From Tautonia plasticadhaerens (GTDB lineage: Bacteria > Planctomycetota > Planctomycetia > Isosphaerales > Isosphaeraceae), in assembly GCF_007752535.1 (NCBI RefSeq), contig NZ_CP036426.1:1488001-1552000 (forward strand): DNA of 64,000 nt. The letters are read 5' to 3'. Shown one piece after another: positions 1 through 2,999 of the stretch; position 1 is the stretch's first letter; every line of letters begins with the position of its first letter. A program made the position numbers and the translations under genes. Below the pieces are notes generated by a model, which was not told where the DNA came from, made no database searches, and worked only from the letters and a program-made list of their open reading frames with translations.

Positions 1-3
1 CGG

Positions 4-76
4 TGGTGTGAGCGGGAGTCGAACCCGCAACCCCCAGATCCTCAGTCTGGTGCCCTACCCATTGGGCGATCACACG
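4..76 (-). tRNA. tRNA-Leu-like (anticodon GAG), short variable loop
   Basis: Cloverleaf read on the minus strand, with the anticodon complement at 41-43. The T arm (12-28) and 5-bp anticodon stem are perfect. The variable loop is only 5 nt although the anticodon is a Leu one, and Leu tRNAs are normally class II. Base pair 1-72 is a C-C mismatch; A73; the 3' tail is CCG, so CCA is not encoded. It is the last array member before the window edge. Confidence 0.75.
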
Positions 77-214
77 CCCGATGCCGCCCCGGTTCAGATC
101 CCATGCACGGGACACACCTCCCCGATCTCCCCGGGGGAGAGGAGGGTGCGCCGCTGGCCTGACGGCATCGGCCGCTTGCTTGAAAGCGATTGGGGATGAT
201 CATGGATCCCCGAG

Positions 215-285
215 AGACGCCGGTGGGAGTCGAACCCACTTCGACCGGGTTGCAGCCGGTTGCCTGGCCGTCTGGCTCCAGCGTC
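215..285 (-). tRNA. tRNA-Cys(GCA)
   Basis: Anticodon complement at 251-253, loop CTGCAAC, 7-bp acceptor stem with one G-U pair. U73, the cysteine identity base, is present. Position 8 is G instead of U. No encoded CCA. Confidence 0.9.
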
Positions 286-301
286 GATGGTCCGCGAGGG
301 A

Positions 302-372
302 TGTCCCCGCCAGGAGTCGAACCTGGCCCTCGACCTTCGCACGGTCGCGTGCCTCCCTCACACTCCGGGGAC
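302..372 (-). tRNA. tRNA-Arg(GCG)
   Basis: Anticodon complement at 338-340. The acceptor stem is perfect (303-309 with 366-372) and the T arm is 310-326. The D loop is short and lacks A14, and position 8 is G. A73. A G34 anticodon for CGC is unusual, because bacteria normally use ICG (gene ACG) for this codon. Confidence 0.8.
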
Positions 373-390
373 GGGATGGGTCGACCGCAG

Positions 391-462
391 TGCCCTCGCC
401 AGGAGTCGAACCTGGCCCTCGACCTTCGGAGGGTCGCGTGCCGTCCGACACACCCCGAGGGC
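391..462 (-). tRNA. tRNA-Arg(CCG)
   Basis: Anticodon complement at 427-429, acceptor 392-398 with 456-462, T arm 399-415 identical to the neighbouring Arg(GCG). This suggests the two Arg genes share an origin. G8, A73, no encoded CCA. Confidence 0.85.
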
Positions 463-483
463 AACGATCGATCGTCGGATCAG

Positions 484-553
484 CAGGGGCGCAAGGATTC
501 GAACCCTGTGGACGGGCTTTGGAGGCCCGCTGCTCTCCCAGGAGCACGCCCCT
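484..553 (-). tRNA. tRNA-Trp(CCA)
   Basis: Anticodon complement at 520-522, loop CTCCAAA, perfect acceptor stem. G73 matches bacterial Trp identity. U8 present. The tail reads CTG rather than CCA. Confidence 0.92.
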
Positions 554-575
554 GTCTGCTGCTTCGATCAGCAAG

Positions 576-647
576 GGTGTCCGACGGGATTCGAACCCGC
601 CCTTCGAGGCCCACAACCTCGGGTGCTGCCGCTACACCACGGACACC
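576..647 (-). tRNA. tRNA-His(GTG)
   Basis: Anticodon complement at 612-614, loop TTGTGGG with normal U33. The extra 5' G(-1) at 647 faces C73 at 576, the histidine hallmark. The acceptor stem is perfect. Confidence 0.93.
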
Positions 648-672
648 CTCAACCGTTCGGCCAATCCGACAG

Positions 673-755
673 CGGAAGGGGAGGGATTCGAACCCCCAAG
701 GCTTGCGCTCGCCCGCCTTCCACGCGGGTCCCGTCGCCGATCGGGTGGCCCTTCC
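673..755 (-). tRNA. tRNA-Ser(GGA)
   Basis: Class II tRNA with a long variable arm between the T arm and the anticodon stem. Anticodon complement at 719-721; acceptor 674-680 with 749-755; G73 as in Ser. Position 8 reads C. Acceptor and T-stem sequences are shared with the Ser(GCT) gene at 874-961. Confidence 0.9.
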
Positions 756-770
756 ATCGAACTCGGCCAG

Positions 771-843
771 TGGGCGGTGCAGGGATCGAACCTGCGACCT
801 CCCGCACGTCACGCGGGCGCTCTCCCGGCTGAGCCAACCGCCC
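771..843 (-). tRNA. tRNA-Val(GAC)
   Basis: Anticodon complement at 808-810, perfect 7-bp acceptor stem, canonical T arm (779-795), U8, A73. One of the most regular members of the array. Confidence 0.92.
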
Positions 844-873
844 TCGGGAACGTCCCCGACCCCTGGGACGCAG

Positions 874-961
874 CGGAAGGGGAGGGATTCGAACCCCCAC
901 GCCCCTCTCGGGGCTCACTCGTTAGCACCGAGGCCCGGCCAGCCGTATCCGGCTCCCTTCC
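874..961 (-). tRNA. tRNA-Ser(GCT)
   Basis: Class II tRNA with a GCCCC/GGGGC variable arm. Anticodon complement at 924-926; pair 27-43 is mismatched. G73; position 8 is A. Confidence 0.87.
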
Positions 962-978
962 TTCGCACTCACCCGCAG

Positions 979-1049
979 TGGACCGCCGGGGAGTCGAACC
1001 CCGATCTCCGGTGTGCAAGGCCGGTGTCTTCCCATTGGACGAGCAGCCC
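979..1049 (-). tRNA. tRNA-Ala(TGC)
   Basis: Anticodon complement at 1015-1017. The acceptor stem contains G3-U70, the alanine identity pair, plus A73. Pair 31-39 is C-A. It is the only array member whose anticodon does not begin with G or C. Confidence 0.88.
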
Positions 1050-1066
1050 ATCACGATTATCGGACA

Positions 1067-1137
1067 AGGTCCGCCCGGGGCTCGAACCCGGACCACCTCC
1101 CTACCGAGGAGGCATGCCGCCATAACACCTGCGGACC
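1067..1137 (-). tRNA. tRNA-Thr(GGT), C33
   Basis: Anticodon complement at 1103-1105, 7-nt loop TCGGTAG. Position 33 is therefore C rather than U. The acceptor and T stems are perfect. Position 8 is A; discriminator U73. Confidence 0.83.
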
Positions 1138-1144
1138 AGCAGAG

Positions 1145-1217
1145 TCGTCCCGGCAGGAGTCGAACCTGCGATCACCCGCATGTGAGGCGGGGGCCCTGGC
1201 CGCTGGACGACGGGACG
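1145..1217 (-). tRNA. tRNA-Val(CAC)
   Basis: Anticodon complement at 1182-1184, loop CTCACAT, perfect acceptor stem, U8, A73. It complements Val(GAC) so that both G- and C-ending valine codons are read. Confidence 0.92.
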
Positions 1218-1303
1218 AAGCGGAGTCGAGCAGTCGGTCGACGAGGGAGGACTCGACGCTGCAATGCACCCGAGCCCCGGCCGGGTCTCGGTCCACCCGA
1301 GAA

Positions 1304-1373
1304 TCCCAGGCCCCGGTAACGATCCGGGCACGCCGGGCTTATGAGACCCGGCCGGGCACCTGCCACGCCTGGT
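1304..1373 (-). tRNA. degenerate tRNA-Met-like (CAT)
   Basis: The anticodon arm carries the standard Met loop CTCATAA (anticodon complement at 1341-1343). Acceptor strands 1305-1311 and 1367-1373 pair except at 1-72 (A-G), reminiscent of the unpaired 1-72 of initiator tRNA. The D arm is reduced to about 10 nt and the T loop reads ATCGTTA instead of TTCRANN. It could be a decaying initiator-like tRNA or a genuinely truncated tRNA. Confidence 0.5.
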
Positions 1374-1393
1374 AAGGATCTCCGATCGAGGAG

Positions 1394-1465
1394 TCGCCCG
1401 TGCGGGACTCGAACCCGCCTCTCCCGGTCGAGGGCCGGGTGTCCTGGCCGATGGACGAACGAGCG
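1394..1465 (-). tRNA. tRNA-Glu(CTC), C33
   Basis: Anticodon complement at 1430-1432, loop CCCTCGA, so C33 and G37. Stems are intact with one G-U pair in the acceptor. U8; A73, where bacterial Glu usually has G73. Confidence 0.83.
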
Positions 1466-1475
1466 ATCTGCGAGG

Positions 1476-1558
1476 TGCGCCGGGACGGAATCGAACCGCC
1501 AACGCCCGGGGGCGGGGCGGGTTACGGCCACCGGGGCTCTCCGGTGCCCGGCCGACGC
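1476..1558 (-). tRNA. tRNA-Tyr(GTA), C33
   Basis: Class II tRNA with a G/C-rich variable arm. Anticodon complement at 1523-1525, loop CCGTAAC with C33. Acceptor 1477-1483 pairs with 1552-1558. Position 8 is C. A73 as expected for Tyr. Confidence 0.82.
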
Positions 1559-1579
1559 ATCAGACGAATCCGGAACAAG

Positions 1580-1654
1580 CGCCCCCGATGGGATTCGAAC
1601 CCATGACCTCCACCGTGACGGGGTGGCGAGCACTCCAGGCTGCTCCACGAAGGC
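1580..1654 (-). tRNA. tRNA-Asp(GTC), C33
   Basis: Anticodon complement at 1617-1619, loop CCGTCAC with C33 where Asp tRNAs have U33. D arm, T arm and U8 are otherwise canonical, and G73 matches Asp identity. Confidence 0.88.
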
Positions 1655-1669
1655 GTGTCGGAAACCGAG

Positions 1670-1743
1670 TGGCCCGAGAGGGATTCGAACCCCCACTCTC
1701 CCGCGTCTGAGGCGGGTGTCGTTGCCAGTTCGCCTACCGGGCC
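1670..1743 (-). tRNA. tRNA-Leu(CAG), short variable loop
   Basis: Anticodon complement at 1707-1709, loop CTCAGAC with normal U33. The D arm has the wide GGC...AACTGGC form typical of Leu tRNAs, and A73 is present. The variable region is only 5 nt instead of the long class II arm. Confidence 0.82.
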
Positions 1744-1780
1744 TGCGGTTGATTGCAGCGTCCCCGTTCATTCCTCGAAG

Positions 1781-1852
1781 ATCGGGGAGGAGGGCTCGAA
1801 CCTCCACGACCGGCCTCAGAAGCCGGAGGCCTACCGATTCGCCGATCCCCGA
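1781..1852 (-). tRNA. tRNA-Gln(CTG)
   Basis: Anticodon complement at 1817-1819, loop TTCTGAG. U1-A72 is the Gln identity pair. U8 present; discriminator U73. Confidence 0.9.
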
Positions 1853-1853
1853 G

Positions 1854-1925
1854 CGTGCCCCGCGGGAGTCAAACCCGCCTGTCCGGCGTGGGGGGCCGGT
1901 GCCTGTGCCGATCGGCCAGGGACAC
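1854..1925 (-). tRNA. tRNA-Gly(CCC), C33
   Basis: Anticodon complement at 1890-1892, loop CCCCCAC with C33. The T loop has an A variant (TTTGACT in tRNA sense). G73 is unlike the usual U73 of Gly. It begins one base after the Gln gene. Confidence 0.8.
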
Positions 1926-1938
1926 GTCTCGCAAGAGG

Positions 1939-2022
1939 CGGAAGGAGAGGGATTCGAACCCCCAAGGCTCATCGCTCGGCCGCGTTCGAGGCGGCTGCCG
2001 TCGCCGATCGGCGTGTCCTTCC
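1939..2022 (-). tRNA. tRNA-Ser(CGA)
   Basis: Class II tRNA with a long variable arm. Anticodon complement at 1986-1988; perfect acceptor stem 1940-1946 with 2016-2022; G73; position 8 is C. It is the third Ser isoacceptor in the array. Confidence 0.9.
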
Positions 2023-2028
2023 GTCGAG

Positions 2029-2103
2029 CACTGGCGGCAGGAATCGAACCTGCGACCCTCCGGTTAACGGCCGGACGCCCGTACCAGCACAGGCCCCACC
2101 AGT
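2029..2103 (-). tRNA. tRNA-Asn(GTT), C33
   Basis: Anticodon complement at 2066-2068, loop CCGTTAA with C33. Acceptor 2030-2036 pairs with 2097-2103. G73 fits Asn; position 8 is G. Confidence 0.85.
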
Positions 2104-2128
2104 GTGAATGTCCCGATCATTCGGGAAG

Positions 2129-2202
2129 TCGGGGCGGCCGGATTCGAACCGGCGCTCTCCTGGACCCGAACCAGGCGGATTCCCAGCCTTTCCCACGCCC
2201 CG
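2129..2202 (-). tRNA. tRNA-Pro(CGG)
   Basis: Anticodon complement at 2166-2168, loop TTCGGGT, perfect acceptor stem, U8, A73. Regular structure. Confidence 0.93.
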
Positions 2203-2210
2203 ATCGTCGA

Positions 2211-2281
2211 AGTGCCCAGCGGGAGTCGAACCCGCACATCCGCCATGGCAAGGCGGTAGGCTTCCCCTACATCATGGGCAC
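2211..2281 (-). tRNA. tRNA-Gly(GCC)
   Basis: Anticodon complement at 2247-2249, loop TTGCCAT, perfect acceptor stem, U8, and U73 as expected for Gly. Confidence 0.93.
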
Positions 2282-2314
2282 GATGATCGATCGCCGGATT
2301 GTCAAAGAGCCGAG

Positions 2315-2386
2315 GGCACCGGGTGGGACTCGAACCCACGCCACCGCCGTACGGGGGCGGTGTCCTTGCCGCTGGACCACCAGTGC
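2315..2386 (-). tRNA. tRNA-Thr(CGT), C33
   Basis: Anticodon complement at 2351-2353, loop CCCGTAC with C33. Acceptor 2316-2322 pairs with 2380-2386. U8; C73. Confidence 0.85.
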
Positions 2387-2395
2387 AGGTGTCGA

Positions 2396-2468
2396 TGGGA
2401 CCAGAGGGGCTCGAACCCTCACGTCGCCGGTTAAGAGCCGGGCATGCTGCCGCTCGCATCCTGGTCCC
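2396..2468 (-). tRNA. tRNA-Lys(CTT)
   Basis: Anticodon complement at 2433-2435, loop CTCTTAA, perfect acceptor stem. Pair 27-43 is C-C. Position 8 is G; A73. Confidence 0.88.
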
Positions 2469-2491
2469 GAGTGATCGAGGTTTCATGTAAG

Positions 2492-2562
2492 TCGGACCTG
2501 AAGGACTCGAACCTCCGCCTTGCGGTGATCGGCCGCGTGTTCTGCCGCTGAACCAAGGGCCG
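2492..2562 (-). tRNA. tRNA-Ile(GAT), C33
   Basis: Anticodon complement at 2528-2530, loop CCGATCA, so C33 and a pyrimidine at 37. Mismatches occur at 4-69 and 27-43. The D arm, T arm, U8 and A73 are regular. Confidence 0.8.
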
Positions 2563-2591
2563 GACGGACGGCGACCGGTCGGCCGTCCGAG

Positions 2592-2663
2592 TGGGTCGGG
2601 TGGCGCTCGAATCCACGTCTGCGGTGTTTCAGGCCGCCGCTAAACCATCTCAGCTACCGACCC
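2592..2663 (-). tRNA. tRNA-Phe(GAA)
   Basis: Anticodon complement at 2628-2630, loop CTGAAAC, perfect acceptor stem (2593-2599 with 2657-2663), U8, A73. It is the first gene of the array in the direction of transcription. Confidence 0.9.
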
Positions 2664-2999
2664 GTCGCGGGGAAACGAGAGCGGCCTGGTCGTCCTGGGG
2701 ACGACCGGGCCGCTGCGATGGCTCGCAAGATCGGCGATCGATCGTCAGAGCAGCAGGGGGCGGACGGGCATCGAGGACGGGGCGGGACAACTCCCGGTCC
2801 GACCCTCGGCCCTCGTTCCATCTCGGTTGGCCTGCAAAAACCACGACATCGCTGCCCCGCTCCCTCGGCCGTGACCCGGGAGGCGCCGGGCCACCCGGCC
2901 CGATCGCCCGCCCTCATCCCCGTCGTACAAACCCTAGACGGCGACCCCTCGCGAGATGTTCGCGCCACTCGCGATTTTCCCCGGTCCTGGCTCGTCCCA
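2664..2999. other. intergenic region ahead of the tRNA array
   Basis: No supported gene. It separates the HtrA gene from the array, both transcribed leftward. It holds the hairpin at 2680-2714 and must contain any array-specific promoter, but no clear -35/-10 pair was recognised. Confidence 0.5.
2680..2714 (-). terminator. 16-bp hairpin between HtrA gene and tRNA array
   Basis: Arms 2680-2695 and 2699-2714 pair over 16 bp with one wobble and a 3-nt loop. On the minus strand it is followed by CTCGTTTCC, a weak T tract. It may end the htrA transcript or act as a processing signal 17 nt before the first tRNA. Confidence 0.55.

Follow-up and report, generated by a model that had tools for sequence, protein, structure and literature searches.

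In a stretch of 64,000 nucleotides from the genome of Tautonia plasticadhaerens (contig NZ_CP036426.1, positions 1,488,001 to 1,552,000; hereafter the window), a dense array of tRNA genes lies downstream of a conserved leader. We think it probable that this locus is a stand-by operon, induced when translation fails, that replaces tRNAs; its architecture is well supported, and its induction and function we infer from that architecture. The case is built on what can be read in the genomes: the order and conservation of the array, the structure and identity bases of its tRNAs, gene losses that are tuned to codon use, a leader reading frame, two mutually exclusive helices, a promoter motif, and the neighbouring genes. 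On the broader proposal–that the class Planctomycetia inherits a full second tRNA set with conserved non-standard cores, held behind a translation test made on a leader message and released together with RNA quality-control partners–we regard the arguments for and against as evenly balanced.

A second tRNA set and its common order

ARAGORN finds 27 tRNA-like genes in the window, all on the minus strand between positions 2 and 2663 (2.66 kb in total; Table 1). They have 27 different anticodons, 26 of which begin with G or C, the sole exception being Ala (tgc). These results bear out an earlier description of the locus, made without database searches (the sequence-only reading), as a dense one-strand array of 27 members with non-duplicated, mostly G/C-first anticodons. 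Two of its details need amendment: the gene called tRNA-Leu(gag) is not a decoder (see below), which leaves 26 decoding genes, and the Met gene is degenerate, so that coverage of all 20 amino acids holds if this gene is counted and not otherwise. Most members pass covariance-model scoring, with 19 above the cut-off of the Rfam tRNA model; the class II Ser and Tyr members are matched by the Rfam tRNA-Sec model below its cut-off, and the Met gene (T-loop ATCGTTA) has no Rfam match. In the 18 kb to the left of the window there is no further array tRNA, and the only tRNA there is a scattered housekeeping tRNA-His.

Elsewhere in the genome, which spans 9.4 Mb in 6 contigs, there are 45 other tRNAs, scattered or in small groups and with near-complete anticodon coverage, so the array is a second set and not the organism's only one. 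The locus is thus an array in the sense of at least about 20 tRNA genes at high density (27 in 2.66 kb) beside a scattered housekeeping set, and the housekeeping set already holds most of its anticodons. Neither Lys-UUU nor Ile-CAU was recognised among the housekeeping tRNAs; these genes may be interrupted or fall below threshold.

The array is conserved in the family Isosphaeraceae: array tRNAs were found in most of 45 family genomes (by blastn, where weak single matches can be ordinary tRNAs). A pattern search for three closely spaced T-arms was positive in 197 of 397 genomes of the class, some of these being ordinary clusters. Comparing gene order with 20 loci from other families, chosen via the T-arm pattern, we found an order that recurs in some ten of the families in the class: Phe Glu Pro Pro Ile Lys Ile(tat) Lys Thr Gly Pro Asn Ser Gly Gln Gln Ser Val Leu Leu Asp, continuing after Asp with Leu Tyr Glu Leu Met Leu Val Thr Ala Ala Ser Arg Ser His Trp Thr Arg Arg Arg Cys. 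The window array is a same-order subset of this 41-42-gene array and, judged by that order, is a trimmed copy of it. The notion of a self-contained set, put forward in the sequence-only reading, suits the 41-42-gene ancestor and not the copy in the window.

In a tree of concatenated array tRNAs, all sampled family arrays fall into one clade (support 1.000). The array sits on an 8.7 Mb contig, not on a plasmid, phage or integrative element, its flanking genes show synteny across the genus, and we saw no integrase adjoining it, although integrases were not searched for systematically. We also considered a mobile element as the source and rejected it: plasmid and phage collections gave single-tRNA matches only, and plasmid and phage arrays differ in order and lack the leader. 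Given the class-wide order, the single family clade, the syntenic flanks and the lack of a visible adjoining integrase, the mobile origin suggested earlier is not supported. Inheritance within the class is the simplest reading of the distribution of the arrays in these genomes.

Two variations on this gene order were seen. In one family (f3; for example L182/L183 and L185), each genome divides these distinctive tRNAs between two separate dense arrays, and their order is different. An HNH endonuclease of one type is found inside arrays, often between tRNA-His and tRNA-Trp (L088:11248-11850, L174:7847-8488, L098, L100 and L169).

Identity bases and codon-tuned losses

The array tRNAs retain their structure. 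Across the 27 window genes, stem pairing is 98.4% in the acceptor stem, 96.3% in the anticodon stem and 99.3% in the T stem. Counting covariation between the window tRNAs and 12 other arrays, we found 828 stem pairs altered on both sides yet paired, 231 altered on one side yet paired, and only 45 broken; 98.3% of the cells compared are paired, against 83.3% after shuffling. Features that synthetases recognise are also kept–the discriminator base is that of the host's own isoacceptor in 23 of the 27 genes (permutation mean 10.2, p = 1e-4), and the Ala identity pair G3:U70 is present in 32 of 40 Ala array tRNAs as against 9 of 772 other array tRNAs. Array and housekeeping genes have the same 3' context (N73-Y-U, with no encoded CCA). 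Mean sequence identity of the array tRNAs is 0.61 to their own housekeeping isoacceptors and 0.66-0.79 to their array counterparts in other families. By these measures, the array tRNAs are a distinct type that is maintained, not decaying junk.

The members lost from the window array are not a random sample of the ancestral set. Among its 41 positions, the window has kept 1 of the 14 members with U at the first anticodon position (U34) but 24 of the 27 others (Fisher p = 4e-7), and the anticodons of a Gly and a Val member appear to have been changed from U to C. In 29 arrays the U34 share drops as local GC content rises (Spearman rho = -0.74, p = 4e-6; related genomes are not independent). Going by these anticodon counts, members reading A-ending codons have been lost selectively, and a selective loss that tracks GC argues that the array tRNAs are used in decoding. 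Together with the 45 tRNAs elsewhere in the genome, this biased trimming upholds the suggestion that the array is a second set matched to G/C-ending codons.

The leader and its two competing helices

Upstream of the array is a leader whose layout is shared by many families: a reading frame with a PLR(L/T)-stop end, followed by two helices, each of which needs the same segment. When 19 leaders are aligned, the terminator helix (segments 2 and 3) is 91.9% paired, compared to 28-52% in slid controls, with double changes in 5 pairs; the antiterminator (segments 1 and 2) is 86.0% paired, compared to 20-41%, with double changes in 4 pairs. The two helices are mutually exclusive across the class. The window copy folds both ways, with the antiterminator predicted at -25.1 kcal/mol without the last arm and the terminator at -41.1 kcal/mol with it. 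A covariance model of the leader matches 247 of the 397 class genomes (E <= 0.01; the weaker matches will include chance ones), and it matches the window genome once, at 2673-2765(-) with 53 bits. Array-type tRNAs follow within about 1.5 kb in 47 of 50 inspected copies. Outside the class the matches are all weak and are confined to 5 genomes. The leader matches no Rfam family and, going by Rfam and the literature we searched, appears not to have been described before.

The reading frame has a coding signature. All but one of 64 copies keep its stop codon at the expected position (59 TGA, 4 TAA), and the peptide has Leu at position -3 in 50 copies and Arg at -2 in 55. In the leader frame, 42 of 63 copies have an open ATG 31-42 codons upstream of the stop, whereas the other two frames have it in no copy; at exactly 33 codons the counts by frame are 17, 0 and 0. 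The body of the peptide shows a weak codon-position bias (56, 44 and 40 changes at positions 3, 1 and 2), so it is the frame and the C-terminus that are kept. From the frame test and the conserved C-terminus we predict that the leader frame is translated. Further upstream, 35 of 46 loci contain the motif GAAC-N16/17-CGTC (shuffles: mean 0.75, maximum 3), which we take to be a form of promoter for an extracytoplasmic function (ECF) sigma factor; no sigma-70 promoter was found at the window leader.

We considered whether the hairpin upstream of tRNA-Phe might instead be the terminator of the HtrA-like gene, and dropped this idea because segment 1 and the frame are conserved where the upstream gene differs. 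The leader also occurs away from main arrays. One genome has a second copy, far from its main array, before only a tRNA-Cys and a Band-7 gene (G028 C1:2958946-2960914; L227:147-1901), and three leaders with a frame have no tRNA gene detected within about 1.6 kb (L217:1635-1720, L231:1677-1763, L235:187-281); they may be remnants or have other targets.

We propose that the locus works as follows. Transcription would start at the ECF-type alternative-sigma promoter, and the transcript would open with the short leader frame (ending PLLL in the window). A ribosome that reaches the leader stop would cover segment 1, leaving segment 2 to pair with segment 3 in the terminator-type hairpin, and the array would be off. 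If the frame is left untranslated, or if the ribosome stalls upstream, segment 1 would pair with segment 2, no terminator would form, and the array would be read. The leader could fail in this way when charged tRNAs, initiation or ribosomes fail. The transcript would then be cut into tRNAs that are charged by the ordinary synthetases and restore decoding while the housekeeping tRNAs are damaged. With the leader stop inside it, the 5' arm of the antiterminator presumably corresponds to segment 2 in the trp leader. What we infer in this scheme is which way the switch works, which stress induces it, that the neighbours are co-transcribed, and that the tRNAs are charged and used in decoding. Its direction has a tested precedent in PA5471.1, the leader of Pseudomonas aeruginosa armZ, in which completed leader translation leads to a terminator and stalled translation opens the downstream gene (PMC13041342); that leader is unrelated in sequence and controls an efflux anti-repressor, not tRNAs.

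The leader could also be an ordinary amino-acid attenuator, and the array an aid to everyday expression, one that gives growing cells more G/C-reading tRNAs for their high-GC genes. The G34/C34 bias of the array does match a high GC content, and the leader peptides are rich in Ser, Leu and Arg. However, the array covers all amino acids, which leaves no single one as the obvious signal, and the peptides contain slightly more kinds of amino acid than expected (15.9 different ones, compared to 15.0 in shuffled peptides), a small effect that suits a general sensor better than a single-amino-acid one. Since most of the same anticodons are already in the housekeeping set, and the neighbouring genes concern RNA quality control, we consider an everyday role very unlikely.

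Several observations weigh against a stand-by replacement operon. The universal U8 is missing in a third of array tRNAs and U33 in 30% of those in the window; Gln and Glu array tRNAs often have A73 where the host has G73; and most array Leu members lack the long variable arm, a short variable loop being found in most arrays. Some array tRNAs may therefore be poorly charged or slow. In the window leader the U-tract of the terminator is poor (the scanner reports no T-run), whereas it is clear in most other copies, and the peptide ends in PLLL instead of PLRL, so that switching may be looser in this copy. Many genomes in the class have small, decaying arrays or none.

In many planctomycetes, Kim et al. 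2016 (PMC4807772) noted clusters of tRNA genes that they called degenerate, as well as a singular Ile-UAU gene; they regarded the clusters as probably acquired, maybe dispensable imports. Their clusters are very probably the same loci, and the Ile-UAU gene is a member of the ancestral order found here; their main text does not describe the leader, gene order, identity bases, codon tuning or neighbours. On this view the window array would be a degenerating remnant of a horizontally gained, dispensable cluster, as is further suggested by the lower Rfam scores of array tRNAs relative to housekeeping ones, the broken Met gene, and the retention of only 7-12 members in two genomes of the same genus. 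Decay of this kind is hard to reconcile with the fact that 96% of changed stem pairs are still paired, or with the bases that replace U8, which are not random: each isoacceptor has its own typical substitute from family to family (for example G8 in Arg, A8 in Ser-gct and C8 in Ser-cga). The bias of the losses towards U34, the conservation of the leader frame and helices, and the single clade of family arrays also argue against it, and we regard a remnant as unlikely. Our comparisons support the observation of Kim et al. but, where arrays are well kept, contradict the view of them as dispensable imports; many other arrays of the class are indeed reduced.

Table 1. Positions of the array genes and leader elements in the window.
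Feature	Position	Strand	Basis
Promoter-like motif GAAC-N17-CGTC	2937..2961	-	presumed ECF-sigma type; motif in other loci
Predicted leader reading frame, 34 codons + TGA, MSWFLQANRDGTRAEGRTGSCPAPSSMPVRPLLL*	2745..2849	-	stop conservation + frame test
Segment 1 (TGACGATCG), stop codon + 5' arm of antiterminator	2739..2747	-	class-wide helix + predicted fold
Segments 2 + 3, terminator-type hairpin AGCGGCCCGGTCGT-ccccagg-ACGACCAGGCCGCT, weak U-tract here	2680..2714	-	alignment, covariance model, fold
tRNA-Phe(gaa)	2591..2663	-	ARAGORN + stem check
tRNA-Ile(gat)	2491..2562	-	ARAGORN + stem check
tRNA-Lys(ctt)	2396..2468	-	ARAGORN + stem check
tRNA-Thr(cgt)	2314..2386	-	ARAGORN + stem check
tRNA-Gly(gcc)	2211..2281	-	ARAGORN + stem check
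tRNA-Pro(cgg), C1-G72	2128..2202	-	ARAGORN + stem check + identity bases
tRNA-Asn(gtt)	2028..2103	-	ARAGORN + stem check
tRNA-Ser(cga)	1937..2022	-	ARAGORN + stem check
tRNA-Gly(ccc), ancestral anticodon probably tcc	1853..1925	-	ARAGORN + comparison of arrays
tRNA-Gln(ctg)	1780..1852	-	ARAGORN + stem check
tRNA-Leu(cag), short variable loop	1669..1743	-	ARAGORN + stem check
tRNA-Asp(gtc)	1579..1654	-	ARAGORN + stem check
tRNA-Tyr(gta)	1474..1558	-	ARAGORN + stem check
tRNA-Glu(ctc)	1393..1465	-	ARAGORN + stem check
tRNA-Met(cat), degenerate T-loop in this copy	1303..1374	-	ARAGORN; Rfam negative
tRNA-Val(cac), ancestral anticodon probably tac	1144..1217	-	ARAGORN + comparison of arrays
tRNA-Thr(ggt)	1067..1137	-	ARAGORN + stem check
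tRNA-Ala(tgc), G3:U70 present, only U34 member retained	978..1049	-	ARAGORN + stem check
tRNA-Ser(gct)	873..961	-	ARAGORN + stem check
tRNA-Val(gac)	770..843	-	ARAGORN + stem check
tRNA-Ser(gga)	672..755	-	ARAGORN + stem check
tRNA-His(gtg)	575..646	-	ARAGORN + stem check
tRNA-Trp(cca)	483..553	-	ARAGORN + stem check
tRNA-Arg(ccg)	390..462	-	ARAGORN + stem check
tRNA-Arg(gcg)	302..372	-	ARAGORN + stem check
tRNA-Cys(gca)	214..285	-	ARAGORN + stem check
tRNA-like module, called Leu(gag), anticodon not conserved	2..76	-	comparison with counterparts in other genomes

Downstream neighbours and related systems

Past the end of the array by 445 nt, and outside the window, is a gene for a Band-7/SPFH protein (C1:1486446-1487555(-); PF01145, E 6e-33). 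Band-7 homologues are found at the equivalent position in five families, and in 26 genomes (counted by eye from two lists) a Band-7 gene follows a leader on its own strand, no more than about 9 kb away. The interval between the array and the Band-7 gene holds a conserved RNA that includes a tRNA-like module; in the window, this module is the gene called tRNA-Leu(gag). Its counterparts in eight other genomes occupy the same site and have common flanking sequence and different anticodons, which indicates that the element is not a decoding tRNA; we had considered it as a relocated array member and dropped this in favour of a module of the conserved RNA with a non-conserved anticodon. In two other genomes (G010 and G080), the array is followed directly by a YrlA-like RNA and then a TROVE/vWA Ro60 gene (L246:689-819 and L251:672-815), the RNA scoring 53.4 and 49.7 bits, under the Rfam gathering score of 69. 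No rtcB or rtcA was seen next to the arrays, and the single RtcB of the window genome is about 96 kb away. In the proposed operon, the tRNA-like RNA and the Band-7/SPFH protein, or the YrlA-like RNA and Ro60 in those two genomes, would come from the same region and probably act in RNA quality control. The suggestion in the sequence-only reading of a backup against tRNA-cleaving toxins fits the leader and these neighbours.

The same neighbours could point to a decoy or sponge: instead of decoding, the induced array would soak up nucleases that cleave tRNA, or would act as a tRNA mimic. The altered D-arm, core and anticodon loops of the array tRNAs, the tRNA-like module with its free anticodon and the Ro60/YrlA genes would all suit such a role, and the tRNA-like domain of Salmonella YrlA has been discussed as a competitor of an anticodon nuclease (PMC7790460). 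Yet a decoy would need neither the synthetase identity bases that we observe, G3:U70 among them, nor an anticodon set that follows codon usage. Decoy and non-ribosomal uses, both raised in the earlier description, fit poorly with the codon-tuned losses and kept identity elements, and we think a decoy quite improbable.

Among known systems, the closest in function to the proposed replacement operon appears to be the trn operon of Anabaena PCC 7120 (the L-array on the delta plasmid), which adds about 26 tRNA genes to a complete housekeeping set (PMC10272220, PMC9938897). There the trn operon, rtcB, a slipin-family gene and an HNH endonuclease gene share the repressor TrcR, and translation inhibitors induce them (PMC10272220, PMC9938897). 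These parts are of the same kinds as those at the planctomycete arrays and have been brought together independently. The Anabaena operon is plasmid-borne and has a DNA-binding repressor, whereas the planctomycete array is chromosomal, with a class-wide order, an attenuator leader and an ECF-type motif. Salmonella has an RtcR-controlled rsr-yrlBA-rtcBA operon, induced by RNA damage, in which Ro60 and Y RNA are partners (PMC7790460); two of our genomes share the Ro60/Y RNA likeness, but the Salmonella operon has no tRNA array and the planctomycete arrays have no adjoining rtcA or rtcB. The arrays of Mycobacterium, of Variovorax and Acidiphilium plasmids and of phages are likewise dense strings of mostly non-redundant tRNA genes (PMC5966550, PMC12803027), but their gene order is different and they have no match to the leader.

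Except in Anabaena, there is no agreement on what large tRNA arrays do in bacteria, and the planctomycete ones have been set down as dispensable imports. With an ordered set found class-wide behind a conserved leader, function becomes directly testable, as the leader predicts the conditions under which the array is on. If our reading is right, the leader is an RNA regulator that senses translation as a whole and belongs to no Rfam family, and the spare tRNAs are linked to Ro60/Band-7 RNA quality control, a link that we did not find described for the phylum.

Two minor observations concern the plasmid arrays and the left flank. On the Variovorax plasmid (L161) and the Acidiphilium plasmid (L162), ARAGORN finds 38 and 26 tRNA genes, respectively, in about 10 kb, in an order unlike that of the planctomycete arrays; the gene table for the plasmids, in which RNA genes are not listed at all, does not include them. 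Between 8 and 18 kb past the end of the window array, there are aminoacyl-tRNA synthetase genes (left flank L031, 300-4026 and 7697-10549), of the isoleucyl-tRNA synthetase (IleRS) type of class I by Pfam and PheS/PheT-like by eye.

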